Positions 48,801 through 64,000 of a DNA stretch of 64,000 nucleotides are shown piece by piece. This DNA comes from Phycisphaeraceae bacterium (lineage in GTDB: Bacteria; Planctomycetota; Phycisphaerae; Phycisphaerales; Phycisphaeraceae). The stretch is from NCBI GenBank assembly GCA_029260655.1, contig JAJDCU010000047.1:1-64000 (forward strand), given 5' to 3'. The notes below the pieces were generated by a model. That model was not told where the DNA came from. It worked only from the letters and a program-made list of their open reading frames with translations, and made no database searches. A program made the position numbers and the translations under genes. Numbering within the stretch: position 1 is the stretch's first letter; every line of letters starts with the position of its first letter.

Positions 48801-49703
48801 CGCCGTCTTGACTTTGCTCAGCGGCATGCCGTACGCCAGAAGCCTCACCGGGTCGACCACGACCTGGTACTGCTTGACGAACCCGCCGACCGGCGCGACT
48901 TCGCTGACACCTTCCACAGCCGTAAGTTCGTAGCGCAGGAACCAGTCCTGCAAACCGCGCAGATCAGACAGGTCCTGATCGCTTGGTGTCAGAGGCTTGC
49001 CGTCCAACGGACAGCGGTCGTAGCCACGGGTGAGTTGGATGGATTCGAGCCTGCCGCGCGCATCCGGCGGCGCGGCGTCGGGCGAGTCGTAACGTTTGTT
49101 ATCCTGTATGTCTGCGTAGATGACGCGCCCAGCGGTGAAGACGCGGTGGCGGACCAGCCGTTGCTTCATCGCCGGGTCGTCCGGCGCCTCGCCGAGGTTT
49201 GGGTACCAGGCATCGGTATCGGGATCGTGCCACAGGCCGTTGGGATGGTCTACGCAGTACGGGCCTGTGGTCAGGACATACTGGTAGACCCACCCCACGC
49301 CGGTCGCGTCGGGCCCGAGCTGGGGGCTGACACTTGCCGGAAGGCTGCTGGCGACGGCGTTGAGCTGTTCGAGCACCCGGCTGCGCGCCCAATAAAGGTC
49401 GGTCCCGTCCTCGAAGATAACGTAGACAAAGCTCGTCCCGAACATGCTGTACCCGCGGACGGTCTTGGCGTAGGGCACGGCCAGCATCGAGGTGGTCAGC
49501 GGGTAGGTGACCTGGTCCTCGATGATCTTGGGCGCCTGCCCGGGGTACTCGGTGCGCACCACGACTTGCACGTCCGAGAGGTCGGGGATCGCGTCGATCG
49601 TGATGTGCTGGGTAGACCACACCCCGGCGGTGATCACGAAAGCGGTCAACAGCAATACGACCGCCCGGTTGTCGATGCACCCGTGGATGAGTTTGGCGAT
49701 CAT
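45882..49703 (-). CDS. cusA: CusA-type copper/silver RND efflux pump with long insertion
   Basis: A 1273-residue heavy-metal-efflux RND permease (E. coli CusA is 1047). Twelve core membrane helices frame two periplasmic porter domains. GVMVDSSIVMVENAH carries the proton-relay Asp. The YMPTTDPG and PPSMFETT methionines align from memory with the Cu(I)/Ag(I)-binding methionines of CusA. Extra length comes from about 95 residues at 147-242 (containing CPLDGKPL), a ~25-residue insert near 335, and two added hydrophobic segments near 645-690. It overlaps cusB by four bases. GAGGGGAC precedes the ATG. Confidence 0.88.
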   Translation of the reverse strand: MIAKLIHGCIDNRAVVLLLTAFVITAGVWSTQHITIDAIPDLSDVQVVVRTEYPGQAPKIIEDQVTYPLTTSMLAVPYAKTVRGYSMFGTSFVYVIFEDGTDLYWARSRVLEQLNAVASSLPASVSPQLGPDATGVGWVYQYVLTTGPYCVDHPNGLWHDPDTDAWYPNLGEAPDDPAMKQRLVRHRVFTAGRVIYADIQDNKRYDSPDAAPPDARGRLESIQLTRGYDRCPLDGKPLTPSDQDLSDLRGLQDWFLRYELTAVEGVSEVAPVGGFVKQYQVVVDPVRLLAYGMPLSKVKTAIQRSNVDVGGRLIEMSETEYMVRGLGYLGGLTDAEIAEARASGRSIENARSDKALAELRQASLGATEDGTPIYIDDVAEVRVGPEIRRGIGEWNGRGEAVGGVVVMRFGENAQATITRVRDRLAELEAALPPGVAVQVAYDRSDLIERAIHTVASTLIEEVVVVSLVILLFLLHARSALVAAFVLPTGVLSTLSVMHLLGINANIMSLGGIAISIGVMVDSSIVMVENAHKHLEREKQRVAGGGEPRARAQVIAEAAAEVGPTLFFSLLIITVSFLPIFVLGEQSGRLFKPLAYTKTFAMASAAVLAITIIPVMMVYLIRERIVPSIWSRRRRLLVYAVTVVGPALVLALMPMSGLDGYRGWLVLGWVVLACLALLPQKIHSEQRNPVSLILQRLYNPMFVLVMHYRKSTLLCAALLMAATLWPFSQLGSEFMPPLEEGDLLYMPTTDPGISMTKARELLQQTDKLIMQFPEVESVFGKAGRAETATDPAPPSMFETTITLRRDKHLWRTRAVERFYSGWPGWLTWAPRAVWPDVRTITVQELIYGYELPGSEEGARVPGLHNVINIPGLTNAWTMPIKTRIDMLSTGIKTPIGIKLMGPDLETLSQLAEQTASVVKTDSRVAAFTTSAFADKSVGGNYFDIRIDRKQIARYGLNVADVQDVVMSAMGGMNVTQTIEGLERYPVNLRYPHELRDNLDSLRQTLVATPSGAQVPIGQLASIEVHKGPPMIKSENARPTSWVYVDIKDLDVGTYVTRARQAVDESVKLPNGYSIVWSGQYEYMQAARQRLTVIVPLAGVLILLLLYMATRDWLRVAILVLSLPFGLVGAVWLLYVLDYNLSLAVWVGVIALAGLAVETGLVMLLYLENSFDRFAEEGRMRNTDDLWHAVHEGAVKRIRPKTMTVMTTFIGLVPLLWASGAGADTMRRLAAPMIGGLATAFLLELLLYPVIFYLVKRFAMRHTFSANEAASVRSA

Positions 49704-51652
49704 CGCGTTGTCCCCTCTGGCGCATCGGCGGGCTCAACAGGCTGTGTAGCGGGTGAGTTCGTCTGGGTTGTCTGCGCATCGGGCTGTGTCGCGGCGGCCC
49801 CGGTAACAGGCAGGGTCTTACGGGCGTCGAAGCAACGGAGCATGACCTCGCCGAAGTAGGGGTTTTGAACCTCGCCGGCGGTCTGGAGCCAAAACCCACC
49901 GCCCTGATCGGCTTGGTACATCGGGCAGTGTAGTTCCTGGACCTCCTGGCCAAAGGACCGGGGTACGCCGGTGGCTCGTAGCAGTGTGCTCAGGGCCACA
50001 CTGAGGTCGGCGAAACGCAGCCTTGCCTCAGCCAGGTCATTTGCCTGCCCTAGTTCTTTGGCATGCCCAATCGCCTCCTTGATTTCGGGGTGCTTGCGCC
50101 CAAAGTGCGGGTCGCCGGTGACCGGGGATGCTTCCAGCCGGCGCAGCGCCTTCACGATCCGCTCGGCGGGCGGGGCAGTCCCCTCGGCGGTGTCTTGCGC
50201 AAGTAGATCGGCGACCGAGAAGTAATCGGTGAGCAATCCCGATAGCAGCTCGTCCGCCTCGCCGGTCAGCGATGCGGGGCCGTCCTCGGCGTCGCTCTTG
50301 TCGGTGTCCGGCCTATCGATCGCCGACTCGCCCATGACCATCTTCGCCAGCGCCTCACGCATCTTCGCCTCGCTGTCGATCAGAAACTGGCCGCTGGTCA
50401 CGACCTTCTCGCCCGGCTCCAGCCCTTGCAGAATCTCAACCATCCCGTCGCCGGCCTCGATCCCGACCCGCACATCACGCGGCTCGAACCGCCCGTCACC
50501 AAGACTCACGAACGCCACACTGCGCTCGCCGGTGTCGATAATCGCTTCGCGCGGCGCCAGTGTCCGCTCCCGTGCCAACGTGCTCTGGAGCTCAACGTTG
50601 GTGAACATCCCGGGCTTGAGCAGCCCGCTGGGGTTGTCGAACTCGAGGCGGACCTGAACCTCCCGCGTCTTCTTATCGAGGTACGGGTACACGAAGATCA
50701 CCTCGCCGCTGAACGACTGCCCGGGGATATACGGCAGGGTCATCACCGCGCGCTGGCCGGCTTGGACATAAGGCAGCTGGTACTCGTACAACGTCACCAA
50801 TACCCACACCTTGGACAGGTCGGCGATCCGGTAGACGCGCATCCCCGGGTCGACGTTCATCCCCTCGTTGGCGTGCTTGTCGATCACCACGCCGGTGTGC
50901 GGGCTCAGCACGCTGATCGTCTTGGTCGGCTCGCCGGTCTGTTCCAGTTGCTCGATCTGCTCGGGCGTGACGTCGTAATAAAGAAGCCGGGTGCGCGCCG
51001 CGTCGAGCAGGTTCGTTGCGCCCTGCACGGCCGTTCCACGGTTGCGGTAGGCCAGCAGGTATTCCTGTAGCGCTGAATACACCTCGGGCGAGTACACGTC
51101 GAAAAGCGGTTGCCCTTGCTCGACCTGGGCGCCCAGGAAGTCGACGTGCATCTTTTCGATCCACCCCGAGACCTTGATGTTCACGTCTCTAATCGACGGC
51201 TCGGCGTAATCGACCGTCCCGACCGTGCGGATCGTCTTGACCAGCGGGCCCTTGACGACTTCGCTGACCCGCACGCCGATGTTCTGCACGATCAACGGGT
51301 CGATCGCAACCTCGCCGGTGAACTTCGTCGGGTCGATCGGGGTCAGGTCCATGTGGCAGATCGGGCAGAGACCGGGCTTGGGCAGCACGATCCAGGGGTG
51401 CATCCCGCAGGTGTAGAGCATCTGGCCGTGCTCGTCAGTGGTTGCGGCGGGGTCGTCCGTGTGATCGTGCCCGATGCCGACGAACTGCAGCGCGGGCCGA
51501 ACCACATTCGGGATGACCCAGCCAAAGGCGGCGCCCAACAGGACCGCGGCGAAGATCAGCAATACCAATCCGATCAACACAGCGGGCTTTGGTCCGCGCG
51601 GCGGTGGGGGGCTGGGCGGGGGCGTGGGGTTGTCTATCGCCTTATTTGTCAT
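49700..51652 (-). CDS. cusB: CusB-type periplasmic adaptor with heavy-metal-binding N-terminus and DUF3347-like tail
   Basis: A 650-residue membrane-fusion protein. A membrane anchor (about 24-48) precedes a heavy-metal-binding domain with YTCGMHP and CPICHMDL (about 79-107). The lipoyl/hairpin/beta-barrel core follows (about 120-440). The C-terminal ~190 residues resemble DUF3347 and contain HCPMY, a further metal-site candidate. It links the inner-membrane pump to the outer-membrane channel and hands copper or silver to the pump. It overlaps cusA by four bases and the cusC-like gene by 11 bases. Confidence 0.87.
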   Translation of the reverse strand: MTNKAIDNPTPPPSPPPPRGPKPAVLIGLVLLIFAAVLLGAAFGWVIPNVVRPALQFVGIGHDHTDDPAATTDEHGQMLYTCGMHPWIVLPKPGLCPICHMDLTPIDPTKFTGEVAIDPLIVQNIGVRVSEVVKGPLVKTIRTVGTVDYAEPSIRDVNIKVSGWIEKMHVDFLGAQVEQGQPLFDVYSPEVYSALQEYLLAYRNRGTAVQGATNLLDAARTRLLYYDVTPEQIEQLEQTGEPTKTISVLSPHTGVVIDKHANEGMNVDPGMRVYRIADLSKVWVLVTLYEYQLPYVQAGQRAVMTLPYIPGQSFSGEVIFVYPYLDKKTREVQVRLEFDNPSGLLKPGMFTNVELQSTLARERTLAPREAIIDTGERSVAFVSLGDGRFEPRDVRVGIEAGDGMVEILQGLEPGEKVVTSGQFLIDSEAKMREALAKMVMGESAIDRPDTDKSDAEDGPASLTGEADELLSGLLTDYFSVADLLAQDTAEGTAPPAERIVKALRRLEASPVTGDPHFGRKHPEIKEAIGHAKELGQANDLAEARLRFADLSVALSTLLRATGVPRSFGQEVQELHCPMYQADQGGGFWLQTAGEVQNPYFGEVMLRCFDARKTLPVTGAAATQPDAQTTQTNSPATQPVEPADAPEGTTR

Positions 51653-53153
51653 GGGTCTTATCCCTGTCTTGATTGGGCTGGGTTGCCGGCTGGGTTAGCG
51701 CGGGCTGAGTCGATGGGTGGTCGTCAGGCATGGGCGTGCGGGTGACGCTTGCCGGGTCGTGTCCGATCACGCGGTCAAGCTCGGCCAGGTCCTGGTGCAG
51801 TTGGGCGACGCTCCTGTGGTACGCCAACTCGAAATCCAATTGTTTACGCCAGTTGTCGACCACGGTGAGGAACTCGACCCGCCCGGCGCGGTAGCCCGAC
51901 TCTGCGGCCGCCACCGCCTGCTTCGCTTGGGGGATGATCACGTCTCGGAACATCACCGCCAGTTTCTGTTGGGTCTGGACACGGGTCAGCGCATCTTGAA
52001 CGAGAAACGCCACGCGGTTGTGCCGGGCGGTCAGCTCGGCGATGTTTTCGAACAAACCGCGCAGGGCCTGGCGCTCCGCGGCGTCGAGTTTTGCATGCCA
52101 CAGCGGGAGGTTGATGCCGAAACCAAGCCACCACTGGTCCTGGCCGGTCGCGGACATGGCGTGCCCGTCGGCGCTGACCGCGTTGTAGTTGACGCTGACC
52201 GTCAGGTCCGGGCTGCGCTGGAGGCGGGCGAGCTTGAGTTTTTCACGGGACGCCTGGATGCGTTGGTGGATCGCGGCGAGTTGGGGGTTGTTGGCCGCCG
52301 CCTGGGCAAGCAGCGAGTCCAGATGTTCGGGTGCCGGCGGCAGGTCGGCGCGCGGGGGGGCGGGCAGCGCCGCGTCGACCCGGCGATCGAGCAGGCTGTT
52401 GAGCATCCCCGCAGAGGAGGTTCGTTGCTGCTCAAGCAGCAGTTGCTTGTTTTCCAGGTCGCTTAGCTCGACCGAGGCGCGCAGCACGTCCTGCTGCGCC
52501 GCGGTCCCGGCCTTGTAACGGGCTTCGGCCGAGGCGTGGAATTGACGCATCAGGTCGCGGTCACGCTGGACGACCTCGATCCCGCGCGTGGCGTCGTAGT
52601 AGCTCCAATACGCCCGGCGGGTGTCGGCCGCCACGCCCAGCCTGACCTGCTCCAGCTCCCGCACCGCGACCTCGGCCTCCTGCTGGGCGACCCGGCCACG
52701 CGCCGCGAGTTTGCCCGGGGCGGGCAACGTCTGGCTGATACCGGTCATCACCTCGACCTGACCTTCGGCGGTCTCCGCCATCTGGCCGATCGGAGCAACC
52801 GTGAACTCCGGGTCGTCCAGGCTCGTTACCTGCGGGACCTGCGCCCGAAGACGCGCGACTTTCTGACGGGCCGCCTCGATCGCCGGGCTACGCTCAAGCG
52901 CCAGGCGGACGTAGTCCTGTGGCCCGGCGTCAGGCGGCAGGTCGCCTGCTTGTTCCCCGGATGCCGATCTGTCCGATGACGATGCGGTGAGTGTGTCTCG
53001 GCTGTGGACCGCGCCGCTTCCGGTCAAGCGCCACGTCTGCGGATCGCGCTCGATCCAGTCCGAGTATTGATCGTCATCAAACGGCGACGCACACCCCGCC
53101 AACACGACCGCCGTGGTTGCCGAATACATGATTATGTTTATCTGATGTCGCAT
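51642..53153 (-). CDS. cusC: TolC/CusC-type outer-membrane efflux lipoprotein
   Basis: A 503-residue outer-membrane channel. The signal peptide ends in a lipobox (VVLAGCAS, lipidated Cys21). Two OEP repeats are visible in the long helical regions (about 95-290 and 300-490), with the typical alternating coiled-coil and strand pattern. The ATG at 53153 is preferred to a longer frame because it starts the signal peptide and AAAGGAAA lies upstream. Together with CusA and CusB it forms a complete tripartite metal efflux system. Confidence 0.87.
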   Translation of the reverse strand: MRHQINIIMYSATTAVVLAGCASPFDDDQYSDWIERDPQTWRLTGSGAVHSRDTLTASSSDRSASGEQAGDLPPDAGPQDYVRLALERSPAIEAARQKVARLRAQVPQVTSLDDPEFTVAPIGQMAETAEGQVEVMTGISQTLPAPGKLAARGRVAQQEAEVAVRELEQVRLGVAADTRRAYWSYYDATRGIEVVQRDRDLMRQFHASAEARYKAGTAAQQDVLRASVELSDLENKQLLLEQQRTSSAGMLNSLLDRRVDAALPAPPRADLPPAPEHLDSLLAQAAANNPQLAAIHQRIQASREKLKLARLQRSPDLTVSVNYNAVSADGHAMSATGQDQWWLGFGINLPLWHAKLDAAERQALRGLFENIAELTARHNRVAFLVQDALTRVQTQQKLAVMFRDVIIPQAKQAVAAAESGYRAGRVEFLTVVDNWRKQLDFELAYHRSVAQLHQDLAELDRVIGHDPASVTRTPMPDDHPSTQPALTQPATQPNQDRDKTHDK

Positions 53154-53170
53154 GACATTTCCTTTGGCAC

Positions 53171-53794
53171 TTACCATGCCAGGTGATCGATTCCGTAGAT
53201 CAGTGCGCCGCCGAAGAACCCCGCTGCCGCGACAAGCGAGGCCCCGATACCCAGGGACATCAGGTACCACCGGCGCAGCCCCCGTCCACCCTCGCGGTAG
53301 CTTGCCAGACACAGCCAGGCTACCGCGATCGACCAGACTGCTGTGCCAGTCCCGACCCATCGGTGCGTGGTGGTGACCCAGTCGTCATCCACCCAGTGCA
53401 GCCCGCCGTTGAGCCAGCCCAGCCCGGCGGCCACCACCGCGCTGATAGCTGCCAGCACGACGCAGAACCGACCGGCGCGTGATCCGATCACCTCGGCGAG
53501 CAGCCCGGCGATCAGCAGAGCGATTGGGAAGTGAACCACCGTCGGGTGCAAGCCGCCAAGCCAGCCAAGCAGTCGGTCAGTTGAGAATCCCCCGGCCGCG
53601 TCGGTGTTTTCGTCACCGTGGCCGTGGTCGTGCTGGTGGTCGTGTGTGATGTCCGTGGCCGCCGGCGCTGGCGCAGGGTGCCCGTCCTGGCTGGCGTATA
53701 CCCCGCTTGAAGTAAGCAGGGCCACGGCAACGGCCAAAGCCGTGAACCACGCCGGTCGCAGGGAGGTCTTCAGTAACGTGCGGTTGCTTGGCAT
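53171..53794 (-). CDS. DUF2231 membrane protein with His-rich segment
   Basis: A 207-residue membrane protein. A signal-like first helix (about 14-34) is followed by a histidine-rich stretch (THDHQHDHGHGDEN, about 47-60), suited to binding Cu, Zn or Ni. A DUF2231-type four-helix membrane region follows, starting LHPTVVHFPIALL with two conserved histidines. The ATG at 53794 has GGAG seven bases upstream. It is the first gene of the Cus operon (17 bases before cusC), so a periplasmic metal-sensing or buffering role is likely by context. Confidence 0.78.
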   Translation of the reverse strand: MPSNRTLLKTSLRPAWFTALAVAVALLTSSGVYASQDGHPAPAPAATDITHDHQHDHGHGDENTDAAGGFSTDRLLGWLGGLHPTVVHFPIALLIAGLLAEVIGSRAGRFCVVLAAISAVVAAGLGWLNGGLHWVDDDWVTTTHRWVGTGTAVWSIAVAWLCLASYREGGRGLRRWYLMSLGIGASLVAAAGFFGGALIYGIDHLAW

Positions 53795-53829
53795 CACGGT
53801 GCTCCGGTCGGTGCGGGTGTATGTGTCAG

Positions 53830-54667: not shown

Positions 54668-56554
54668 TCAGGCCGTGACGTCTGTCGAACGCTCCATCAG
54701 GGCGACGGCCGCCGGAAGCAGGAGCATGTCTCCGGCCAGCGCCGCGGTGACGGCCAGCGCCATCAGCACCCCGAACTCGGCGGTTGGGCCGAACGGCGAC
54801 AGCATGAACATCGCCATGCACGCCGCCGTGATAAGCGAGCTACCCACACACGGACGCCAGCACACCAGAAGCACTCGGCGTATACCCCGACCTCGCCGCA
54901 TTTCGGCGGCGAGGTGCAGCGTGTCGTCGACCGCCGCGCCGACCGCGATCGCGCCGATCATCAGTGACGGCAGGCTCAGGGGTATGCCCAGCAGGCCGAC
55001 GATGACGATCAGCACCGCGACGGGGAACAGGTTGACCCAGGCGGCGATCAGCGCGAGCCTCAGGCTCCGACCGGCGACGAACCAGACGGCGACAGCGGCT
55101 ATCAGGACCATCGCGGGGAACGCCGTCAGCGCGACCCGGACCACGCCGACCGATACGCCGTGCAGTTGCGCCGCGATGCCGGACCACGTCAACTCGACAC
55201 CCTCCCGGGCCGCCCAGTCCTGCCAGTGCGTCTGCGCCTGAATGAGCGATCCCAGGGCGTCGGCGTCTGCGAACCCCAGATACAACGCGCCCTGACTTGG
55301 GTCCAGCAAGCTCACATCGACGACCAGGCGCACGCCCGGCGTTACGGTCAGCAATTCGGTGGCGTCCGTGTTGCCGTGTACAGCGACCTCAAACGGCAGC
55401 ATCCCGATGAGCCGCTTATCAAGTTGTACGTGGTCGCGGGTGACCCGTGAGGCGTTGGGGAAGTACGCGATGGGGTCGCTGTGTAATTGTAGCAGGGGCA
55501 GGCACAGGACCGCGGCGGCGGTCAGCATGGCCGCGGCGGTGATGACGGTTCTCGGTCGGCCGATCGCACAGGTGGCGGCCAAGTGCTTAGCCCGGCGAAG
55601 CCGGCTCCGGCGGTGTCCCGTGGTCACCCGGCATCGCGCATTTTGCGGTGGTCTGACCAGCAGCATCACCGACGCCCAGGTCATGACCACGCCCAGGGCG
55701 CCCCAGACCGCGAACGACCGGATCGGGGGGAACGGGCTAAACGCGAACCCGATGATCCCGGCGGCGGTGGTCAACGCGCACAGCGCCAGCGTCCCACCGA
55801 TGCCCCGGCGCTGCGCCCGGTGGGCGGCGAACGAGAACCCAAGGGCCATCATCAAAGGCCAGACCATCGACAGCACCATGTCCATCGGCACGCCCAGCCA
55901 GGAGATGACGCCGACCAGCGCGATTTGGCTCCCGACGATCGCCGCCGTCGCCGACGCGACGACACGGGCGCTGCCGATGACCCACCACAGCAGCAGCGCA
56001 CCGGCCAGGATGATGGCCGACGCGATCAGCGGGAGCCTGCGCTGGCTCCAGTCATTGAGCGCCCCGGTGAACACAGCCGGACCTCCCAGGGCCAATCGGT
56101 CGGCGTCGTCGCCCAACTCGCTGCGCAGCAGACCCTGGACCGCGCCAAGAAAATCGCGGTCTCCCACGCCGGCGCGGGCGAAGCAGAACAGGCCGGTGTA
56201 GGTCGGGTCGTCAAACAAGATCCCGCCGCGTGGTGGTGCATGTGCTGCAAGCGCGAACCGGCCCGTGGAATTAGGCGAGACACAGGCGGCGACTTCCGCG
56301 AGCGATTCCAGCTTCTTCGCCAGCAGATCCGGGTCGAGGAGTTGCTTCTCACCGCCTATGACGACGAAGGTCGCGATCGCGTCGTGTCCTGCTAACTCGG
56401 GCATCCAACCGCGCAGTGAATTCTCGATCCTGTACCGGCTTAGCCCCGCCGCCGCGATGCAGATGACCGCCAGCCAGACCGCCCAGATGGCAAGCCGTCG
56501 GCTTCCCGGGTGGTCCGTGACGGTGAGACCAGATGTGTCTTTAGCTTTACTCAA
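54668..56554 (-). CDS. small RND/MMPL-family exporter
   Basis: A 628-residue membrane protein with about 12 helices in two halves (first helix 22-42, then five near 174-320; seventh near 340, then five near 465-620), each with a periplasmic loop of 100-130 residues. GAIAVGAAVDDTLHLAAEM is the typical MMPL/RND helix-4 signature with acidic pair. It is shorter than HpnN or mycobacterial MmpL exporters. Such proteins usually move lipids or hydrophobic products across the envelope. The start is TTG (56554), overlapping the glycosyltransferase stop by eight bases, last gene of a seven-gene operon. Confidence 0.8.
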   Translation of the reverse strand: MSKAKDTSGLTVTDHPGSRRLAIWAVWLAVICIAAAGLSRYRIENSLRGWMPELAGHDAIATFVVIGGEKQLLDPDLLAKKLESLAEVAACVSPNSTGRFALAAHAPPRGGILFDDPTYTGLFCFARAGVGDRDFLGAVQGLLRSELGDDADRLALGGPAVFTGALNDWSQRRLPLIASAIILAGALLLWWVIGSARVVASATAAIVGSQIALVGVISWLGVPMDMVLSMVWPLMMALGFSFAAHRAQRRGIGGTLALCALTTAAGIIGFAFSPFPPIRSFAVWGALGVVMTWASVMLLVRPPQNARCRVTTGHRRSRLRRAKHLAATCAIGRPRTVITAAAMLTAAAVLCLPLLQLHSDPIAYFPNASRVTRDHVQLDKRLIGMLPFEVAVHGNTDATELLTVTPGVRLVVDVSLLDPSQGALYLGFADADALGSLIQAQTHWQDWAAREGVELTWSGIAAQLHGVSVGVVRVALTAFPAMVLIAAVAVWFVAGRSLRLALIAAWVNLFPVAVLIVIVGLLGIPLSLPSLMIGAIAVGAAVDDTLHLAAEMRRGRGIRRVLLVCWRPCVGSSLITAACMAMFMLSPFGPTAEFGVLMALAVTAALAGDMLLLPAAVALMERSTDVTA

Positions 56555-57770
56555 CGATCATCGCCCGACGGTTGAGTTTGTAGTACGTGCTGCGCCAGCC
56601 GACGATCCGTCTGATCGACAGCCACCAGATCGCACGGGCCAGTAGCGCCATCACAACCAGGACCGACACGGGGTACGCCAGCAGGTACCGCCGGTCGCAG
56701 TAGCCCAGCTTCCAGAACCGCCAACTCACCGCGTATATCAACACCAGGTGTGCGGCGCATGTCCCGGCCGCCGCCCATAGCAGCGGGTCGGTCGTCTGTT
56801 TCGTGGCCAGTTGGTAGCCGAGGTACGGCCCGGCGACGAAGGGGAGCAGCGACCCGGCCACCAGCCACGCGATGCTCAACGCCAGCTTGGTCCGGCTGCG
56901 TAAGGCGCCGACGAAGATCCGGGTCCATCCGTCACAGATGCCTGAGAAGCTCTTGTACATCCGTACGCCGACCAGGTCGCGCCCCCCGGCGGTCCAGGAC
57001 CGCACGCCCTTGCGCGCGGCGAGTTCGGCCAGGGGCACGTCCTCGATCAGCGCACGCCGCACCGCGCGGTGCCCGCCGATCCTTTCGTAGGCGTCCCGGC
57101 GGATCAGGATGAACTGCCCGTTGGCGAACGCCGAACCCGCCCGGCGCCCCGGCGCGTTGGATCGGCCGAACCACAGCGCCATCACCGTGCCGCAAAGGGG
57201 GATCAGCATGTGCTCCCAGAAGCTCTCAGCCAGGTGACCCGGCCACAGCGACAACATCGCCACGTCTCGACGCTGCGCCTCGTCCAGCGCCGAGCGGACG
57301 GCCCCGGGGTACAGCGTGCAGTCGGCGTCGACGAACAGCAGCCAGTCGTCCGTGACTTCGCGCGTCGCGGTCCATAGCGCATGTGACTTGCCCAGCCAAC
57401 CCGTGGGCAGGCGGTCGATCCGCAGGACGCGCAGACGCTTGTCATTGGCGGCGCAGGCATCGGCTACGGAGGCGGTCGCGTCTTCGCTGCGGTCATCGAC
57501 GACCACGACGCGCAGCCGTGGGTAGTCCTGCGCCAACGCGCCCGACAGCGAAGCGCCCAGCGATTCCGCCTCGTTGCGCGCCGGGATCACGATACAGACG
57601 CTGGGCAGTTCGCCGGCATCAACCCCGCCTGGTGTGTCGGTCCCGATGTGCTCGCGCGGCTTGAGCATGATCCCTTGGCGCAGCGCCACGCCCTGGGCGT
57701 ACAGCAGCACAGCCCAGACGTTGCAAACCACGCCCCACCCGGCCAGCAGTGTTAGGGATGTCCAGTCCAT
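56547..57770 (-). CDS. membrane glycosyltransferase family 2 (HpnB/CruC-like)
   Basis: A 407-residue enzyme. A first membrane helix (about 5-27), a GT-A domain (about 55-290) with VCIVIPARNEAESL and FVDADCTLYP (DxD), and three to four C-terminal membrane helices (about 300-390). The layout and the GWLGKSHA motif resemble hopene-associated HpnB and carotenoid glycosyltransferases, from memory. It would transfer sugar to a lipid in the membrane. It overlaps both neighbours (19 bases before, 8 after). No hopanoid or carotenoid genes are visible, so the acceptor is open. Confidence 0.83.
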   Translation of the reverse strand: MDWTSLTLLAGWGVVCNVWAVLLYAQGVALRQGIMLKPREHIGTDTPGGVDAGELPSVCIVIPARNEAESLGASLSGALAQDYPRLRVVVVDDRSEDATASVADACAANDKRLRVLRIDRLPTGWLGKSHALWTATREVTDDWLLFVDADCTLYPGAVRSALDEAQRRDVAMLSLWPGHLAESFWEHMLIPLCGTVMALWFGRSNAPGRRAGSAFANGQFILIRRDAYERIGGHRAVRRALIEDVPLAELAARKGVRSWTAGGRDLVGVRMYKSFSGICDGWTRIFVGALRSRTKLALSIAWLVAGSLLPFVAGPYLGYQLATKQTTDPLLWAAAGTCAAHLVLIYAVSWRFWKLGYCDRRYLLAYPVSVLVVMALLARAIWWLSIRRIVGWRSTYYKLNRRAMIVE

Positions 57771-59362
57771 GTCGCGACACTTTGTGGGTTAGAGGTATCG
57801 GGCAGCCGCAAGACGAGCTGTAAAAGCTCGGGGTCGTCGAAGTCGTAGTGGTCCCAGTGGATCATCTGTGTGCCGCGCTGCCTTGGCTGGCCTGAGCTGA
57901 GAAGGCCGGCGGGTGTAAAGAACACGCCCTCGGGCCGCTGCGCGCCCTTGACCAGGCCGTTGTCATAGAACATGCTCACGACCCTGCCGTCGGGGGTTGT
58001 CAGCCGCTCCAGCTCGTCGTAGGGCCTAAGCGTGTAGTGGTTGTCATCGATGACTTCCGCTTCGTGCCCGGCCTCGTCCATGGCGATATTGATGATCCCG
58101 TGCCAGCCTGCGCGGGCGCGGACGACGGGGCGTTCGCCTCGGCCTTGCACCTGGACAACCTTCGGAACGATCGTGTCGAACTTCCACGGGACTTTCCGCT
58201 CGATGACGAAGCGCTTGCCCTTCTCGGGCTTGCCAAACGCCTGCGCCGCGGCCGCTTCCAGCCTGGCCGAGGGGTACAGCCGGTGGTAGCAGCCACAGTT
58301 GTAAAGCGTCTCGAAAGCGATCGGCTCATTCTGTTCGTCCAGAGTCAGGCGCAGGGTCAGGCCCTCGGTGTGCCCGGCCTCGGGGTCGTTGGGCTTAAGC
58401 TCGGGGTGCCTGGGGTACCAGTAGGTGTAGGTCAGTTGGGTGCGCGGCCTGCCGGCTATCCGGATGTGGCGGGTGTAGGCGTATACCGTCGGGTCGGATG
58501 GGTCGATCCCGATCGCGTTTTCGTCGCGCGCGACAACCCGGCCGATGCGATCGACCGAACGGTCGTAAGCGACTTCATCGGGCCGCTCCTGCACAATCAC
58601 CGGGGCGAAAGTTTCAAGCAGATCCCAAGCATGCTCAGACACCCCTTCCGGTGTTGAGAGCGTAGGGTTCGGCAGGTAGCGCACCGCCGTGTCGAAGGGG
58701 GCGTCCAGGTCGCCGCGATACTCGTGGGACTGGATATCCAGGATCGCGAGCGTCGAAGGGATCGTGAACAGCGCCCAGGACAACGACCGTGTCAGCCGGC
58801 CCTGGATCTTGACCGGCTTCTCGATTGCCTTGGCCACAGGCTCGAGCACCTCGCGGACCTCGTCGGCGGTCTTAGCCGACTCGACCCCGCTGCGAAGAAA
58901 CAAGTACCGCTCTTCGGTGTCGGTGACGAACAGGTCTTTGAGTCTCTGGCGGACCGGATCGTCCACCTCGACCGGCGGGTCCAGGTAGGCGGTTGACAAT
59001 TCATCCCACCCGCCGGGATCGAGCCTGTCCAGTTCGTTCATCGTGCTCTTTATCGCCAAGGCGTGCGCCTCGTCGAGGAAGGCCAATGCTTCGGATCGGG
59101 CACAGGCAAGGTCGTCACTTGTCAGCGCGTCGTCCAGGTGCTGGCGTATGGCGGCGTCGACCCTCAGGCAGGGCCAATCGTCGATGCGCTGGGCCCTTGC
59201 ATCCCGGTATTTGTGTCTCAACGTGACGTCGTTGACGCCGTCGATAAACCTTTCCGGGCGCTGAGCGGCGCAGCCTGAAATAACGCCGGCCAGAGCCACC
59301 GCCAGGAAGCCGACCCACACCGCGCGGTAGACGGTGTCAGGCTGTTGCTGTTTGTACTGCAT
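57752..59362 (-). CDS. lipoprotein of unknown function
   Basis: A 536-residue protein with a lipobox at VISGCAAQ (Cys31), so probably outer-membrane anchored and periplasmic. A helical N-terminal part (about 40-210) precedes a beta-rich C-terminal part with motifs TYTYWYPRHPELKPND, ETLYNCGCYHRLYPS and QMIHWDHYDFDD. I do not recognise the family. The ATG at 59362 is preferred over a TTG one codon upstream. It overlaps the aminotransferase gene by 26 bases and the glycosyltransferase by 19. An acceptor or chaperone for the exporter's product is possible. Confidence 0.7.
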   Translation of the reverse strand: MQYKQQQPDTVYRAVWVGFLAVALAGVISGCAAQRPERFIDGVNDVTLRHKYRDARAQRIDDWPCLRVDAAIRQHLDDALTSDDLACARSEALAFLDEAHALAIKSTMNELDRLDPGGWDELSTAYLDPPVEVDDPVRQRLKDLFVTDTEERYLFLRSGVESAKTADEVREVLEPVAKAIEKPVKIQGRLTRSLSWALFTIPSTLAILDIQSHEYRGDLDAPFDTAVRYLPNPTLSTPEGVSEHAWDLLETFAPVIVQERPDEVAYDRSVDRIGRVVARDENAIGIDPSDPTVYAYTRHIRIAGRPRTQLTYTYWYPRHPELKPNDPEAGHTEGLTLRLTLDEQNEPIAFETLYNCGCYHRLYPSARLEAAAAQAFGKPEKGKRFVIERKVPWKFDTIVPKVVQVQGRGERPVVRARAGWHGIINIAMDEAGHEAEVIDDNHYTLRPYDELERLTTPDGRVVSMFYDNGLVKGAQRPEGVFFTPAGLLSSGQPRQRGTQMIHWDHYDFDDPELLQLVLRLPDTSNPQSVATWTGHP

Positions 59363-60575
59363 CAATTAACACTCCAATCTCCAGCCTCCCGATGGTCAAA
59401 GGCGGCATGAACGCAAGGACGTTGCGGTCCGGCCCGGACTTCCCCGCCAGGACGCGCAGGTCCTTGAGATACTCCAGGATCAGGTCACAGCGCTCGGCGT
59501 CGGGGACGCCTTCCGTGTCGATCACGGGCATCCCAATCATCAGCCCCATGCCACGCGGCGGCCCGAGGTGAGGGCGCTTTGCCGACAGTTTGGTCAGGCC
59601 CTCAAGCAGATATTCTCCGGACGCTTGGGCGCGCTCGCCCAGTTGGTGTTGTCTGTGGTACTCGATCACCGCCAGCGCAGCGACTGCGTTGACCGGGTTG
59701 CCGCCGTGGGTCGACGCGCCGGGGCGGGTGTAGCTTTCAGCGATTTTTTCCGTGGTGATGAAGGCAGCGATCGGGAAGCCGTTGCCCATCGCCTTGCTGA
59801 CCGTCATGACGTCGGGGACCACGCCGAAATGCTCACAGGCGAACCACCGGCCTGTGCGGTTGAACCCGGTCTGCACCTCATCGATCACCAGCAGCACCTT
59901 GTGGTCATCGCAGAGCCTGCGTACCGCCTGCCAGTACCCGTCCGGGGCGACGTTGACCCCGCCGTTACTTTGGATAGGCTCGGCGATGAAAGCCGCGGTC
60001 TGGTCGCCGTGCTTGGCAAACTCGTCCGCCAGCGCGTCGGCGTCGCCGAACGGGACATGGCTCACATCTTCGGGAGGGAACGGATCGGTGCGCCACATCG
60101 GCAGGCCGGTGGCGTTCATCGCCCAGCGTGTCCGCCCGTGCAGGCTGTTGGTGGTTGCGATCACACGGGGTTTGCCGGTGTGCAGCATACTCGTTAGCAG
60201 TGCGCCCTCGACGGTTTCGCTGCCGCTTGCGCAGAAGAAGCTGCGCTTTAACTCGCCGGGCGCGATCTGCGCCAGCGCTTCGGCCAGCCGGAGGATCGGT
60301 TCGGTCAGGTAGATCGTCGTCGTGTGCTGAAGGGTCTGGATCTGCCCGATCGCCGGGTTGATGATGTCCGGGTTGCAGTGTCCGGCGTTCATCACCGCCA
60401 CGCCGCTTAGGCAGTCCAGGTAGCGTCTGCCCAGGTCGTCGAACAGATAACAGCCCTCGCCGCGAATAATCACGGGCGGGTCCTTGTAGAAGTGATAGAC
60501 GCAGGGCAACAGGTACTCGCCCTTGAGCGAGAGTAGCTCCTGTGCTCGGCCGACTTTGGTGGCGGTGTTATCCAT
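59337..60575 (-). CDS. class III aminotransferase (acetylornithine/omega-aminotransferase family)
   Basis: A 412-residue PLP enzyme. The cofactor Lys lies in TVSKAMGNGFP, the PLP-binding Asp in LLVIDEVQTGFNRTG, and the phosphate loop in CASGSETVEGA. It moves an amino group between an amine donor and a 2-oxo acid or aldehyde; the exact substrate cannot be read from sequence. GAGGTGATC precedes the ATG. It overlaps the MqnD-family gene by eight bases. HpnO of hopanoid synthesis is of this class, but the neighbourhood does not otherwise fit that pathway. Confidence 0.88.
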   Translation of the reverse strand: MDNTATKVGRAQELLSLKGEYLLPCVYHFYKDPPVIIRGEGCYLFDDLGRRYLDCLSGVAVMNAGHCNPDIINPAIGQIQTLQHTTTIYLTEPILRLAEALAQIAPGELKRSFFCASGSETVEGALLTSMLHTGKPRVIATTNSLHGRTRWAMNATGLPMWRTDPFPPEDVSHVPFGDADALADEFAKHGDQTAAFIAEPIQSNGGVNVAPDGYWQAVRRLCDDHKVLLVIDEVQTGFNRTGRWFACEHFGVVPDVMTVSKAMGNGFPIAAFITTEKIAESYTRPGASTHGGNPVNAVAALAVIEYHRQHQLGERAQASGEYLLEGLTKLSAKRPHLGPPRGMGLMIGMPVIDTEGVPDAERCDLILEYLKDLRVLAGKSGPDRNVLAFMPPLTIGRLEIGVLIDAVQTATA

Positions 60576-61446
60576 CGATCACCTCGATCCGGTCTATCTT
60601 CGGCCCGATCCCTAGCGCCGCAACGCGGTCGAACATGACACGCATCGCTTGGCGCACATCCTGTGGCAGATTCAGGGTGTCCTCGTTGCTGAACATCTGA
60701 ACGTGCTGTGCGGCGCAGCCCCGGCCGAACCTGCTGGCGAACTCAAACGCCTCGTCGAAGTGGTCCTTGCTCCACCGAAGCGACCGCCGACAGGTGTTCG
60801 CGATATCGTTGCAGAGGTCTTGGCCGAGCGCCTTGCGGACGATGTTCAACCCCACCGGCAGCGGCAGCCCGGTGTCGTCGCACCATGAGGCGCCCAGGTC
60901 GGTGACTTTACGCAAGCCCTTTTCGCCGAAGAATAGAAGCTCCTCGTGGATCATCACCCCGGCGTCGAACTCCCCGGCGACGATCGCGTCGGCGATCTCG
61001 TTGTACCGGTGCTCGATGAATTGCGCCCCGGGGCAGAACATCATCGCCAGCGCCCCGCCGGTCGTGGGGATGCCGGCGACCGCGACGCGCTTGCCGCGCA
61101 GATCGCCGGTGGCGCTGTAGTGTTTGGATACCAGCACCGGGCCGTACCCGCGTCCGACACTGTTGCCGACCGACAACACCGCGTACCGGTCCGCCAGCGC
61201 CGGGTAGGCAACCGACGACACGCCGACCACATCAAACGCTTCCTGCGCCGCGGCGCGATTCAGTGCGATGATGTGATCGCGCTGGAATCGCGCGGTGTAG
61301 TCAGGGGTTTCCAGCCCGACCCGGTCGAACTCCCAGCCGTAATAATTAAACGCATCATCGCTGTCGGGTGTGTAGGCGATGCTCAATGTGCGCGGGACGA
61401 CCCCAGGCAAGCGTTTGCCGGTGAGGTTGTCGGAAAGAACGGTCAT
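60568..61446 (-). CDS. MqnD-family protein (1,4-dihydroxy-6-naphthoate synthase-like)
   Basis: A 292-residue protein of the VitK2_biosynth family, with the two-lobed periplasmic-binding-protein fold acting as an enzyme. GVMIHEELLF contains the catalytic His of MqnD, and TDLGASWCDDTGLPLPVGLN and AYTPDSDDAF are family signatures. MqnD makes 1,4-dihydroxy-6-naphthoate in the futalosine menaquinone route. No other mqn genes are in the window, so it could be the real MqnD or a relative with another substrate. The ATG at 61446 overlaps the U32 stop by four bases; longer readings run into the U32 gene. Confidence 0.8.
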   Translation of the reverse strand: MTVLSDNLTGKRLPGVVPRTLSIAYTPDSDDAFNYYGWEFDRVGLETPDYTARFQRDHIIALNRAAAQEAFDVVGVSSVAYPALADRYAVLSVGNSVGRGYGPVLVSKHYSATGDLRGKRVAVAGIPTTGGALAMMFCPGAQFIEHRYNEIADAIVAGEFDAGVMIHEELLFFGEKGLRKVTDLGASWCDDTGLPLPVGLNIVRKALGQDLCNDIANTCRRSLRWSKDHFDEAFEFASRFGRGCAAQHVQMFSNEDTLNLPQDVRQAMRVMFDRVAALGIGPKIDRIEVIDG

Positions 61447-63497
61447 ATAAGGGTCTCTCGTTGATTGTGAAGCTGTCGCATGACGTGCGCTGTCGTGGCC
61501 GTATGTACGACCGAGCGGGGATACGGCCCCAAGTTGACGGGCCTTGGGCTCAAGTCCTCGACGACGCCCCAGTGTGTCCGCCATGAGCCATCGTCGAGGA
61601 GGCGTCCGGCGAGTTGATCGAGGCGGTGCCGATAGGTGCTTGTCACACGCGCGACGTGATCTGTCTGGTCAAACTGGCCGTCGATACGGATGGACGCGAT
61701 ACCCGGTCGGCAGAATCGATCGAGGATCGGCATCGCCCCGAGGTCGCATCCGGTCAGCAGGTGGTTGCGGCAGTGCTGGTCGGCGACGACAGGGCGGACC
61801 TGACCGTGCTTGTCTCGCAAACCAAAATCAACATGTCGGCAAGGCCCGCGGCAGACGTCTTTGCGGCCCACGGATGATCCGTGCAGCGCGATCACGCAAT
61901 GATCGATCAGCATCCCCAGCAGCGGGCCATGAACCTGTGCCTCGATGGGAAGCGATGCGCCGCCGGTCAGCTCGGCAAGGTCGGCAAGCCCCGCCTCGGT
62001 CGAGGCGCAGCATGCGTCGGCTCCCAGTTCGGCGAGTAACGCCACGGCCGCGCTGTTCATCAGGTTGAATCCGACATCGGCCACGATCGACGACGCCGGG
62101 CACAGCCGAGCCGCCAGCGCCAGCGTGCCGAGGTGATGAACCAGGACAAAGTCAAGCTCGGCCCCCGTCAGTTGACCGAGGACCCACCGCGTCTCTGCCC
62201 ATTCACGATCGGTCGTGATCCGCGGCGTGCGCAGCCCGACCTTCGCGCCGGCGCGGTGAGCCAGATCGATCACATCCGTCACGGCCTGAAGTTTCCAATG
62301 TTCCCCGCTGCGCTGAGACAGCTCGGCGGCGAGATAGATGCGATCTGCGCCGGCTTCAAGTGCGGCGGCGGCGGCTTCCGTACCGGATACACACACCGCT
62401 AACTCGATCATCTCGGCGCTCGCTGCCACCGTCTCCCGGTCTTGAGGGGGCAGTACGACGGCTTCGTCGGCGTCAGTCGGCTCGGCATGCCCGTTACTTA
62501 ACAGCAGGGGCTCACGACGACCGTCGGTATCCACCACGTCCCGGTGAGACGCGCCGCCTAGAATCGTCAGCGTGGACAGACGGCGGACCTGGCTGCGATA
62601 AACATCCTCGATCTGATCGACCGCCAGAGTAAACGAGGGGGGGCATTCGTAGTAGGCGTCGATGGCCTGCCGGTAGCTGTGGACGATCCCGCCAAGGTAG
62701 GCCGCGTCGCGCATACGGCCTTCAAGTTTCATGCAGTGGATGCCCGCCTGGACGATCTGCGGGATGTGCCGGATCAGGCACAGGTCCTTCAGCGCCAGCA
62801 GGTGCCCGCCCCCGACACGGCCGACGGCCTGCCCGTCGTCAAGGCGGACCAAGTCGTAATCCCAACGGCAAGGCTTCATGCACTCGCCGCGGTTGGCGCT
62901 CTTGCCGAACAGCACACCCGAGGTGTTGCAGTGCCCGCCGTGCGCCACGCACATGTCGCCGTGAACAAAGCACTCGACCTCGATGTCGGCGAGCCGTCCG
63001 ATCTCGCCGATCTGTGACAGGCTGATGTCTCGCGAAGTGATGATACGGCTCACGCCCAGACGCTTAAGCACGGCGGCGTGCTCATAATGATGCACGTTCA
63101 TCATCGTGCTGGCGTGAAGCGGCGTGTTGATCCCAAGCTCCCGCGCCAGGCGGAGCGTGGCCAGGTCGTGCACGATGATCGCATCGGCGCCTACCTCTTC
63201 GATCGAAGCGAGCAGGTCGGTCGCCTGCCCCAGTTCGGACTCGCCGATCAAGGCGTTGACGGTTACATAGATGCGCCGGCCTGCATCATGCACAAACTCC
63301 ACGGCCTGGCGGAGCTGCGTTTCATCGAAGTGGAAGTCCTTGCGGTGCTGCCGCATGTTCAACGTCTTGGCGCCGAGATAGACGGCATCGGCCCCCGCGT
63401 TGATGACGGCCTCGAGCGCATCGCGGCGACCTGCGGGCGCCAACAGTTCGATGCGGCGGGTCAGGCCCGTAATGCTCTCGTTGGTAGGCATGATCAT
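61443..63497 (-). CDS. large U32-family protein with two U32-like barrels
   Basis: A 684-residue U32 (collagenase-like) protein. The first barrel (about 12-300) carries CVAHGGHCNTSG and RGECMKPCRW, the cysteine pattern of U32 proteins that hold a 4Fe-4S cluster. The second (about 360-660) has DHC, CRGPC and a later HCRNHLL cysteine set. Members include UbiU/UbiV (oxygen-independent hydroxylation), TrhP and RlhA (RNA modification) and putative proteases. GGAG lies eight bases before the ATG at 63497. It overlaps the MqnD-family gene by four bases. A hydroxylase role in the operon's pathway is an inference. Confidence 0.82.
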   Translation of the reverse strand: MIMPTNESITGLTRRIELLAPAGRRDALEAVINAGADAVYLGAKTLNMRQHRKDFHFDETQLRQAVEFVHDAGRRIYVTVNALIGESELGQATDLLASIEEVGADAIIVHDLATLRLARELGINTPLHASTMMNVHHYEHAAVLKRLGVSRIITSRDISLSQIGEIGRLADIEVECFVHGDMCVAHGGHCNTSGVLFGKSANRGECMKPCRWDYDLVRLDDGQAVGRVGGGHLLALKDLCLIRHIPQIVQAGIHCMKLEGRMRDAAYLGGIVHSYRQAIDAYYECPPSFTLAVDQIEDVYRSQVRRLSTLTILGGASHRDVVDTDGRREPLLLSNGHAEPTDADEAVVLPPQDRETVAASAEMIELAVCVSGTEAAAAALEAGADRIYLAAELSQRSGEHWKLQAVTDVIDLAHRAGAKVGLRTPRITTDREWAETRWVLGQLTGAELDFVLVHHLGTLALAARLCPASSIVADVGFNLMNSAAVALLAELGADACCASTEAGLADLAELTGGASLPIEAQVHGPLLGMLIDHCVIALHGSSVGRKDVCRGPCRHVDFGLRDKHGQVRPVVADQHCRNHLLTGCDLGAMPILDRFCRPGIASIRIDGQFDQTDHVARVTSTYRHRLDQLAGRLLDDGSWRTHWGVVEDLSPRPVNLGPYPRSVVHTATTAHVMRQLHNQRETLI

Positions 63498-63516
63498 GGT
63501 GCGTGCTCCGGCTAAA

Positions 63517-64000
63517 TCAGTAAAGCCCGGCAACCGGGGGGGTGCCCGCCTTGGATAGCGGTCGGGGGTTGTCCACACCGGGCATCACGAACCTGGCGGG
63601 GGCGTCGATGGGTGGGGTGACGAGCCGGGCTTCGTCGCGCTCACACAGCCGGACGATCAGCATTGTCTCGTCGAGTCGTGTGACGCGCAGCCGTCCGGGT
63701 TCGCCGAACGGTGTAGGCTCGCCTTTTACGTCGGTCGTCTCGAAGATAAGCCGGTCGCCCAGCGGGAAGTAGGCGGGCGTTTTCCCTGCGTCGGCGCTCA
63801 ACTCCAGGCAGCAGCCCAGCAGCGTGTTGCCGTACCCGGACAGATGCACGGCATTGGGGAACGATTCGGTCTGGAGCTTGCGCAGCAGGTCCACATTAAG
63901 GGCCATGCCGCCGTAGTGGACGCCGCGGATGCGCAGCCGCTGCGGCTCGGTCATCACCTGCGCCAGGCGGGTCAGCACCGGCGGGGTTGCGAACAGTACG
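63517..64000 (-). CDS. adenylate-forming ligase (PaaK/LuxE-like), partial
   Basis: The last ~160 residues of a protein whose start lies beyond the right edge. HLSGYGNTLLGCC is in the position of the A5 motif (usually YGxTE), here with Leu for Glu. GEPGRLRVTRLDETMLIVRLCERDEARLV matches the following A7/A8-like region of phenylacetate-CoA ligase and LuxE-type enzymes. It would activate a carboxylate as adenylate. It ends 19 bases before the U32 gene and is the first visible gene of the operon. The missing N-terminus prevents a firmer call. Confidence 0.65.
   Translation of the reverse strand, partial: VLFATPPVLTRLAQVMTEPQRLRIRGVHYGGMALNVDLLRKLQTESFPNAVHLSGYGNTLLGCCLELSADAGKTPAYFPLGDRLIFETTDVKGEPTPFGEPGRLRVTRLDETMLIVRLCERDEARLVTPPIDAPARFVMPGVDNPRPLSKAGTPPVAGLY

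Follow-up and report, generated by a model that had tools for sequence, protein, structure and literature searches.

What would an adenylating enzyme, an MqnD-family protein, a class III aminotransferase and an MMPL transporter make together? The question is raised by a run of minus-strand genes at the end of the 64,000-nucleotide stretch of Phycisphaeraceae bacterium DNA analysed here as a whole (the window). A sequence-only reading had described seven overlapping genes at 54668-64000 as one biosynthesis-and-export operon. The ORF coordinates confirm all seven on this strand, with the gap and overlaps it had given, and the assignment to a single operon of this type stands. Its length does not: beyond the window edge the operon continues with an alpha/beta hydrolase, an SDR-SCP2 fusion and a cytochrome c, ten tightly packed genes in total. 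We read the cluster as serving the biosynthesis and handling of an aromatic redox compound that branches off the futalosine (menaquinone) pathway, a reading which we hold tentatively, at slightly less than an even chance.

Read from the contig end at 67118, which cuts the cytochrome c gene, the next genes past the window encode the SDR-SCP2 fusion (65297-66883, contig coordinates) and the alpha/beta hydrolase (64605-65300, contig coordinates). The ligase gene spans 63517..64608 on the contig, of which 63517..64000 falls in the window; its end at 63517 is separated by a 19-base gap from the start at 63497 of the gene for the tandem U32 protein (61443..63497). This gene shares 4 bases (61443-61446) with the MqnD-like gene (60568..61446), which overlaps the aminotransferase gene (59337..60575) by 8 bases. 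The overlap of the aminotransferase gene with the lipoprotein gene (57752..59365) is 26 bases with the ATG at 59362, or 29 if the TTG at 59365 is the start. The lipoprotein and glycosyltransferase (56547..57770) genes overlap by 19 bases, and the latter and the final gene of the operon, encoding the MMPL protein (54668..56554), by 8.

The same genes are found together in many genomes, which places their association far beyond chance. The SDR, the hydrolase, the ligase, the class III aminotransferase and the MMPL transporter form a core that recurs in Planctomycetota, anammox Brocadiales, deltaproteobacteria, Gammaproteobacteria, Lentisphaerae, Sumerlaeota and Hydrogenedentota; in these distant genomes the gene set is kept and its order partly kept. 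Among 37 cluster loci with long flanks, the SDR is present in 37, the MMPL protein in 34, the aminotransferase in 32 and the hydrolase in 30, followed by the U32 protein (15), the third MqnD-family paralogue, MQND3 (10), the lipoprotein (9) and the glycosyltransferase (6). Of 31 loci that surround distant ligase paralogues and served as controls, two have the aminotransferase (2/31) and none the SDR, MMPL protein, hydrolase, U32 protein, MQND3 or lipoprotein (0/31). Many of the genomes compared are incomplete metagenome assemblies. Some clusters (L107-L109) lack the aminotransferase and MQND3, and the glycosyltransferase, lipoprotein and U32 genes, which vary in presence even inside one family or genus, are accessory. 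At least 12 sampled genomes of family f47 carry the cluster; because this family resembles named loci of Brocadia and Scalindua, we presume it to be anammox Brocadiales. No description of a matching cluster was found in the open-licence papers searched, in agreement with the earlier remark that no described pathway with this combination was known to its author.

That a carboxylate is activated and transaminated, as had been proposed, fits the enzyme families. The profile of the ligase (363 aa) matches the EhpF structures 3hgu and 3l2k with an E value of 6e-49, positions 7-363 aligning to 15-366 of 3l2k; this is a full-length similarity, and the C-terminal domain of adenylating enzymes is absent. 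The protein belongs to the EhpF family and is predicted to be an adenylating enzyme. EhpF is part of the D-alanylgriseoluteic acid (phenazine) pathway (PMC3175449). In this cluster as in that system of EhpF (with EhpG), the ligase is small for an adenylating enzyme, with the customary C-terminal domain missing. A thioester-reductase-type SDR is the presumed reductase here, however, and phenazine genes were not seen. The closest solved structures of the SDR are MxaA and NRPS/PKS reductase domains. It carries an NAD_binding_4 (male-sterility/fatty acyl reductase) domain, scores 106 bits against the thioester reductase domain TIGR01746, under the cut-off of 213, and in the window's operon is joined to an SCP2 domain (PF02036) of 25.7 bits, above the cut-off of 21.3. 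The aminotransferase (412 aa; PF00202, 308 bits, above the Pfam cut-off) is 45-52% identical to its counterparts in distant clusters, and its PLP lysine is aligned (TVSKAMG versus TLAKALG of 1vef). A thioester-reductase-like SDR and a class III aminotransferase are also combined in the reductive release of myxochelin and myxalamid by an NRPS reductase domain; the cluster, however, has no carrier protein or NRPS, and its ligase is free-standing.

The source genome has three PF02621 genes, among them MQND3 (292 aa), which scores 176 bits against this family (cut-off 26); among solved structures, MQND3 has relatives only in the MqnD proteins TTHA1568 and AF1704. In the tree, drawn with a root for display only (a single, very long MqnA outgroup, a second, incomplete MqnA row being left out), MQND3 and its cluster homologues form one clade (100/100) separate from the true MqnD proteins, which the same genomes keep as well. 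Such a separation was among the outcomes that the sequence-only reading had named as support for its view. This cluster-linked clade spans three phyla. MQND3 retains D14, N43, S57, T106, H145 and E146 (TTHA1568 numbering), of which D14, S57, T106 and His145 are invariant, while clade-wide changes lie beside the catalytic residues (A108G, 147-148 to EL, L176V, Y234F, 238 to D). Exactly three PF02621 genes were counted in 14 of 16 MQND3-bearing genomes, the exceptions being G318 (76% complete) with two and G346 with four matches, one of them a fragment; six genomes with an MQND3-less cluster have two. We considered a genuine MqnD, converting cyclic dehypoxanthinylfutalosine to 1,4-dihydroxy-6-naphthoate: the domain and catalytic residues fit, but the protein groups apart.

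In five lineages the cluster adjoins genuine futalosine genes. Its neighbours are MqnE, an MqnA-MqnC fusion, MqnB and MqnD in G071 and MqnC, MqnE and MqnD in G178 (locus L139); in the gammaproteobacterium G344 the order is lipoprotein-hydrolase-MqnD-MqnE-MqnA/C, and futalosine genes also adjoin the cluster at L146 and L112. The cluster is linked to this menaquinone route (MqnA-MqnE) both by shared PF02621 and by position; the route itself, however, includes no adenylating enzyme, thioester reductase, aminotransferase, U32 or MMPL protein, and its MqnD differs from MQND3 in clade and in residues beside the catalytic ones. Most genomes with the cluster, the source genome included, have UbiD. The usual decarboxylation in menaquinone synthesis is therefore probably still at work, and the point at which a branch would leave the pathway is a guess. 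UbiD was not found in the cluster genomes G344, G346, G349, G350, G071 and G314; a model in which the carboxylate is kept because UbiD is lost is therefore not general. We saw no prenyltransferase gene within the cluster, and the UbiA matches of cluster genomes lie elsewhere; what suggests a lipid product is therefore SCP2, MMPL and YceI.

The tandem U32 protein (684 aa; PF01136, 312 bits, above the Pfam cut-off) is UbiU/UbiV/TrhP-like, with four invariant cysteines in the alignment of each half, CX6CX15CX3C in the first and C535, C550, C554 and C577 in the second. UbiU and UbiV are likewise four-cysteine U32 domains (PMC6747719). NCBIfam scores stay below their cut-offs (UbiU 178.5 versus 440 bits, UbiV 75 versus 275, TrhP 205 versus 534), and a search by sequence found no solved relative. 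UbiT is the best NCBIfam match of the SCP2 domain, hitting 9 of 10 members (best E 1.7e-8); two members score 25.3 and 16.4 bits, below the equivalog cut-off of 46.9. These likenesses recall the UbiT-UbiU-UbiV system of O2-independent ubiquinone synthesis, from which the cluster differs in that both U32 domains lie in one chain, scores are under the equivalog cut-offs, U32 is optional and SCP2 is often fused to the SDR. The U32 protein is the only one found in the source genome, was not found in the close relatives G314, G317 and G310, and in Brocadiales is an extra copy beside other U32 proteins. A housekeeping tRNA or rRNA hydroxylase is therefore unlikely, and since no U32 protein was found in the close relatives, hydroxylation cannot belong to the core chemistry.

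The small MMPL/RND-type (HAE3/HpnN-like) membrane protein (628 aa) gives weak HAE3/HpnN NCBIfam matches alone; its Brocadiales counterpart matches PF03176 and TIGR00921. The glycosyltransferase, called HpnB-like before, is indeed of the GT2 family (PF00535 above the Pfam cut-off), but the HpnB assignment fails at 155.8 bits versus a cut-off of 379, and its HpnB/CruG likeness lies far below both cut-offs. The resemblance to the hopanoid-associated hpnB/hpnN/hpnO genes is hence faint; HpnN too scores far under its cut-off, and no genuine squalene-hopene cyclase was seen in the source genome, where one cyclase-like match reached 20-36 bits. We rejected a hopanoid link on these grounds. The lipoprotein has an SGC lipobox, an invariant CGC motif and homologues in G071, G173, G344 and other clusters. 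It matches no Pfam or NCBIfam family; its AlphaFold model (pLDDT 78) has no PDB match at E<=0.001, the best being a weak NLP-like match (E 0.01). Multihaem cytochromes are recurrent neighbours, Brocadiales clusters have cytochrome b and multihaem c nearby, and YceI genes adjoin two clusters.

From these families we infer the following scheme. MQND3, or ordinary MqnD where it is missing, would supply an aromatic bicyclic carboxylate, 1,4-dihydroxy-6-naphthoate or a close variant. The ligase would adenylate it, the SDR reduce the activated carboxylate to an aldehyde and the aminotransferase convert this to an amine, with the hydrolase as a putative editing or releasing thioesterase. SCP2 may hold the hydrophobic intermediate, as UbiT and UbiJ do, and the U32 protein, where present, may add a hydroxyl without O2 like UbiU-UbiV; glycosylation would occur in some clusters only. 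Moving a lipid-like product to the envelope or through it could fall to the MMPL protein and the lipoprotein, joined by YceI proteins in some genomes, and cytochrome b and c partners could make use of the product there. Our best guess for the product is a modified naphthoquinone-type lipid.

Instead of a membrane quinone, the same activation, reduction and amination of an aromatic acid, followed by MMPL export, could yield a redox mediator or antibiotic of phenazine- or ACNQ-like type that diffuses or is exported. The phenazine role of EhpF (PMC3175449), the nearly universal MMPL protein, the frequent multihaem cytochromes and a stand-alone MQND3 beside an adenylation-carrier-thioesterase NRPS-like gene (G135) agree with this; SCP2 and YceI, on the other side, indicate that an intermediate is hydrophobic, and presence in so many f47 genomes suggests a physiological, not a strain-variable, product, which leaves it unlikely, if worth weighing. 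Still less probable is an amino(glyco)lipid, made by activating a fatty acid, reducing it to the aldehyde and aminating, glycosylating and exporting the result, with the MqnD-like gene as a passenger: NAD_binding_4, SCP2, the HpnN-like transporter, the GT2 enzyme and the lipoprotein suit it, but the ligase is of the EhpF type rather than one for fatty acids, the MQND3 clade is tied to the cluster across phyla, futalosine genes lie beside it and the glycosyltransferase is rare. That the MqnD-like gene and its neighbours offer another or a reserve way of making ordinary menaquinone, without a new product, is improbable; it would explain the mqn linkage and the retained catalytic residues, yet nearly all MQND3 genomes examined carry two more PF02621 genes, and to our knowledge no known menaquinone step requires an adenylating enzyme, carboxylate reductase or aminotransferase. 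Accidentally overlapping housekeeping genes, which every gene's common superfamily relatives might suggest, are already contradicted by the recurrence across phyla with almost no background at control loci and by the separate MQND3 clade, and deserve hardly any credence.

If this reading is true, a second branch leaves the futalosine pathway in several phyla, with anammox bacteria (Scalindua, Brocadia, Loosdrechtia) among those that have it. Quinone surveys built on known genes would then miss a compound, as would the 2026 survey covering four major quinones (PMC13386864). The cluster provides a short gene list for direct testing. It is possible, though we lean against it, that anammox and other bacteria have in this compound a redox lipid of a new class, serving respiration or the envelope: a naphthoquinone derived from the futalosine pathway that keeps its carboxyl, to be aminated or reduced without O2, and that would have dedicated cytochrome b and multihaem c partners.

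The operon on the minus strand belongs to a conserved gene cluster which carries its own MqnD paralogue and is repeatedly linked to futalosine genes. Its seven overlapping genes at 54668-64000, taken by the sequence-only reading for a biosynthesis-and-export operon, are present and overlap as described, according to the ORF coordinates. The contig extends 3.1 kb beyond the window edge and there reveals the entire ligase (363 aa) and three more genes upstream of it. These encode an alpha/beta hydrolase, a NAD_binding_4-type SDR with an SCP2 domain at its C-terminal end, and a cytochrome c of which only the end is present; in relatives whose contigs reach further (L098, L101), the cytochrome c is confirmed as the next upstream gene. 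In two genomes of the same genus, G314 (locus L099) and G317 (L101), the otherwise collinear operon lacks the U32 gene, and genome search found none elsewhere in them either. A separate minus-strand group at 49700-53797 is, to judge by its ORF sequences, probably a metal efflux system: it encodes an efflux subunit of the membrane-fusion type (650 aa), an outer membrane factor resembling TolC (572 aa) and one small membrane protein.

Matches to the ligase profile fall into a close set (at least about 185 bits) and a distant set (mostly about 120-170 bits). The conservation across genomes that the sequence-only reading had named as a test was found around the close matches, in several phyla. A scan of named genomes located the cluster in Scalindua, Brocadia, Loosdrechtia and other Planctomycetota, and also in Desulfobulbaceae, other deltaproteobacteria, Gammaproteobacteria, Lentisphaerae, Sumerlaeia and Hydrogenedentota. 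The deep planctomycete relative G071 holds homologues of the SDR-SCP2, ligase, hydrolase, aminotransferase and lipoprotein within one stretch, at 25-37% identity to the window proteins (aminotransferase, 45%). Neighbours within 11 kb were counted at 37 cluster loci and, as controls, at 31 loci with distant ligase paralogues, each locus spanning at least 15 kb. The counts are in part dependent, because the same or related genomes recur (L094 and L139 are apparently one record). The SDR was present at 37/37 versus 0/31 loci, MMPL at 34 versus 0, aminotransferase at 32 versus 2, hydrolase at 30 versus 0, a c554-like multihaem cytochrome at 21 versus 0 and U32 at 15 versus 0. The SCP2 protein has its own gene in Brocadiales (L086-L088, L113, L118); in G071 (L045) and the window lineage it and the SDR form a single fusion protein. 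Anammox loci (L087 694-19948, L118, L125 and other Brocadiales) often show a sigma-54-type response regulator and histidine kinase before the cluster, and cytochrome b with three multihaem c-type cytochromes after it.

Three genes of the window genome belong to PF02621, among them the cluster-type paralogue MQND3 (60568-61446). Exactly three occur in 14 of the 16 genomes with MQND3, the others being G318 (76% complete), with two, and G346, with four matches, one a fragment; each of the six genomes whose cluster lacks MQND3 has two. The separation from true MqnD that the sequence-only reading had asked for as support is seen: in a maximum-likelihood tree MQND3 of Planctomycetota, Gammaproteobacteria and Sumerlaeota forms a single group (support 100/100), separate from the MqnD of those very genomes. 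Conserved MqnD residues are retained with fixed substitutions adjacent to them, a pattern compatible with a changed, though related, reaction or substrate. G135 has MQND3 with the rest of the cluster not found in the genome; there the gene immediately upstream of it is NRPS-like and encodes an adenylation-carrier-thioesterase protein of 879 aa (L036 7167-10891). Futalosine genes recur nearby. In G071, MqnE, an MqnA-MqnC fusion and MQND3 share one strand, opposite MqnD, MqnB and the cluster; in G178 (L139) MqnC, MqnE and MqnD surround the cluster; and mqn genes adjoin it in L146 and L112. In the gammaproteobacterium G344, MqnD, MqnE, MqnA and MqnC homologues immediately follow the lipoprotein and hydrolase homologues, with MQND3-SDR-MMPL-ligase-aminotransferase about 25 kb away on the same contig.

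The likeness to the griseoluteic acid pathway is a full-length match of the ligase profile to EhpF (E 6e-49), far above every other solved protein. EhpF is said, in its structure paper, to activate a carboxylate for reduction. It is one of the enzymes turning phenazine-1,6-dicarboxylate into D-alanylgriseoluteic acid (PMC3175449). Nearest relatives of the SDR are thioester-reductase domains, and its glycine motif and Y/K pair are retained; the aminotransferase belongs to class III, and its PLP lysine aligns with that of 1vef. Distant EhpF-like ligases are common across Planctomycetota (e.g. L104 9028-11501, L103 9922-11004), and EhpF-like ligases outside the cluster in Streptomyces, Frankia, Poribacteria, Acidobacteria and others (L147-L184) served as controls. 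In L104 the gene after the ligase is of the aldehyde dehydrogenase family, which suggests a second carboxylate-reducing pair. YceI-domain proteins, a family that binds isoprenoids, lie beside two clusters. UbiT is the top family for the SCP2 domain in 9 of 10 members, with scores under the cut-off. The U32 protein has two domains with four invariant cysteines apiece. In the UbiU-UbiV heterodimer, each subunit holds a 4Fe-4S cluster via four cysteines (PMC6747719).

We propose, at close to even confidence, that the futalosine branch would supply an aromatic carboxylate which would be adenylated, reduced and then aminated, hydroxylation and glycosylation being optional tailoring, to give a redox compound, probably lipid-like, moved by the MMPL protein. 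Against a universal scheme stand the missing U32 in close relatives, clusters without MQND3 and aminotransferase, the retention of UbiD in most cluster genomes and the absence of a prenyltransferase from the cluster. That the product is instead an exported mediator or antibiotic seems unlikely, though it is the strongest competitor; an aminolipid is still less probable, and a backup menaquinone route is very improbable.

The open-licence papers searched contain no description of this gene combination. Every family is already known; what appears new is their assembly into one cluster, and there is a real chance that its product is a new redox lipid.
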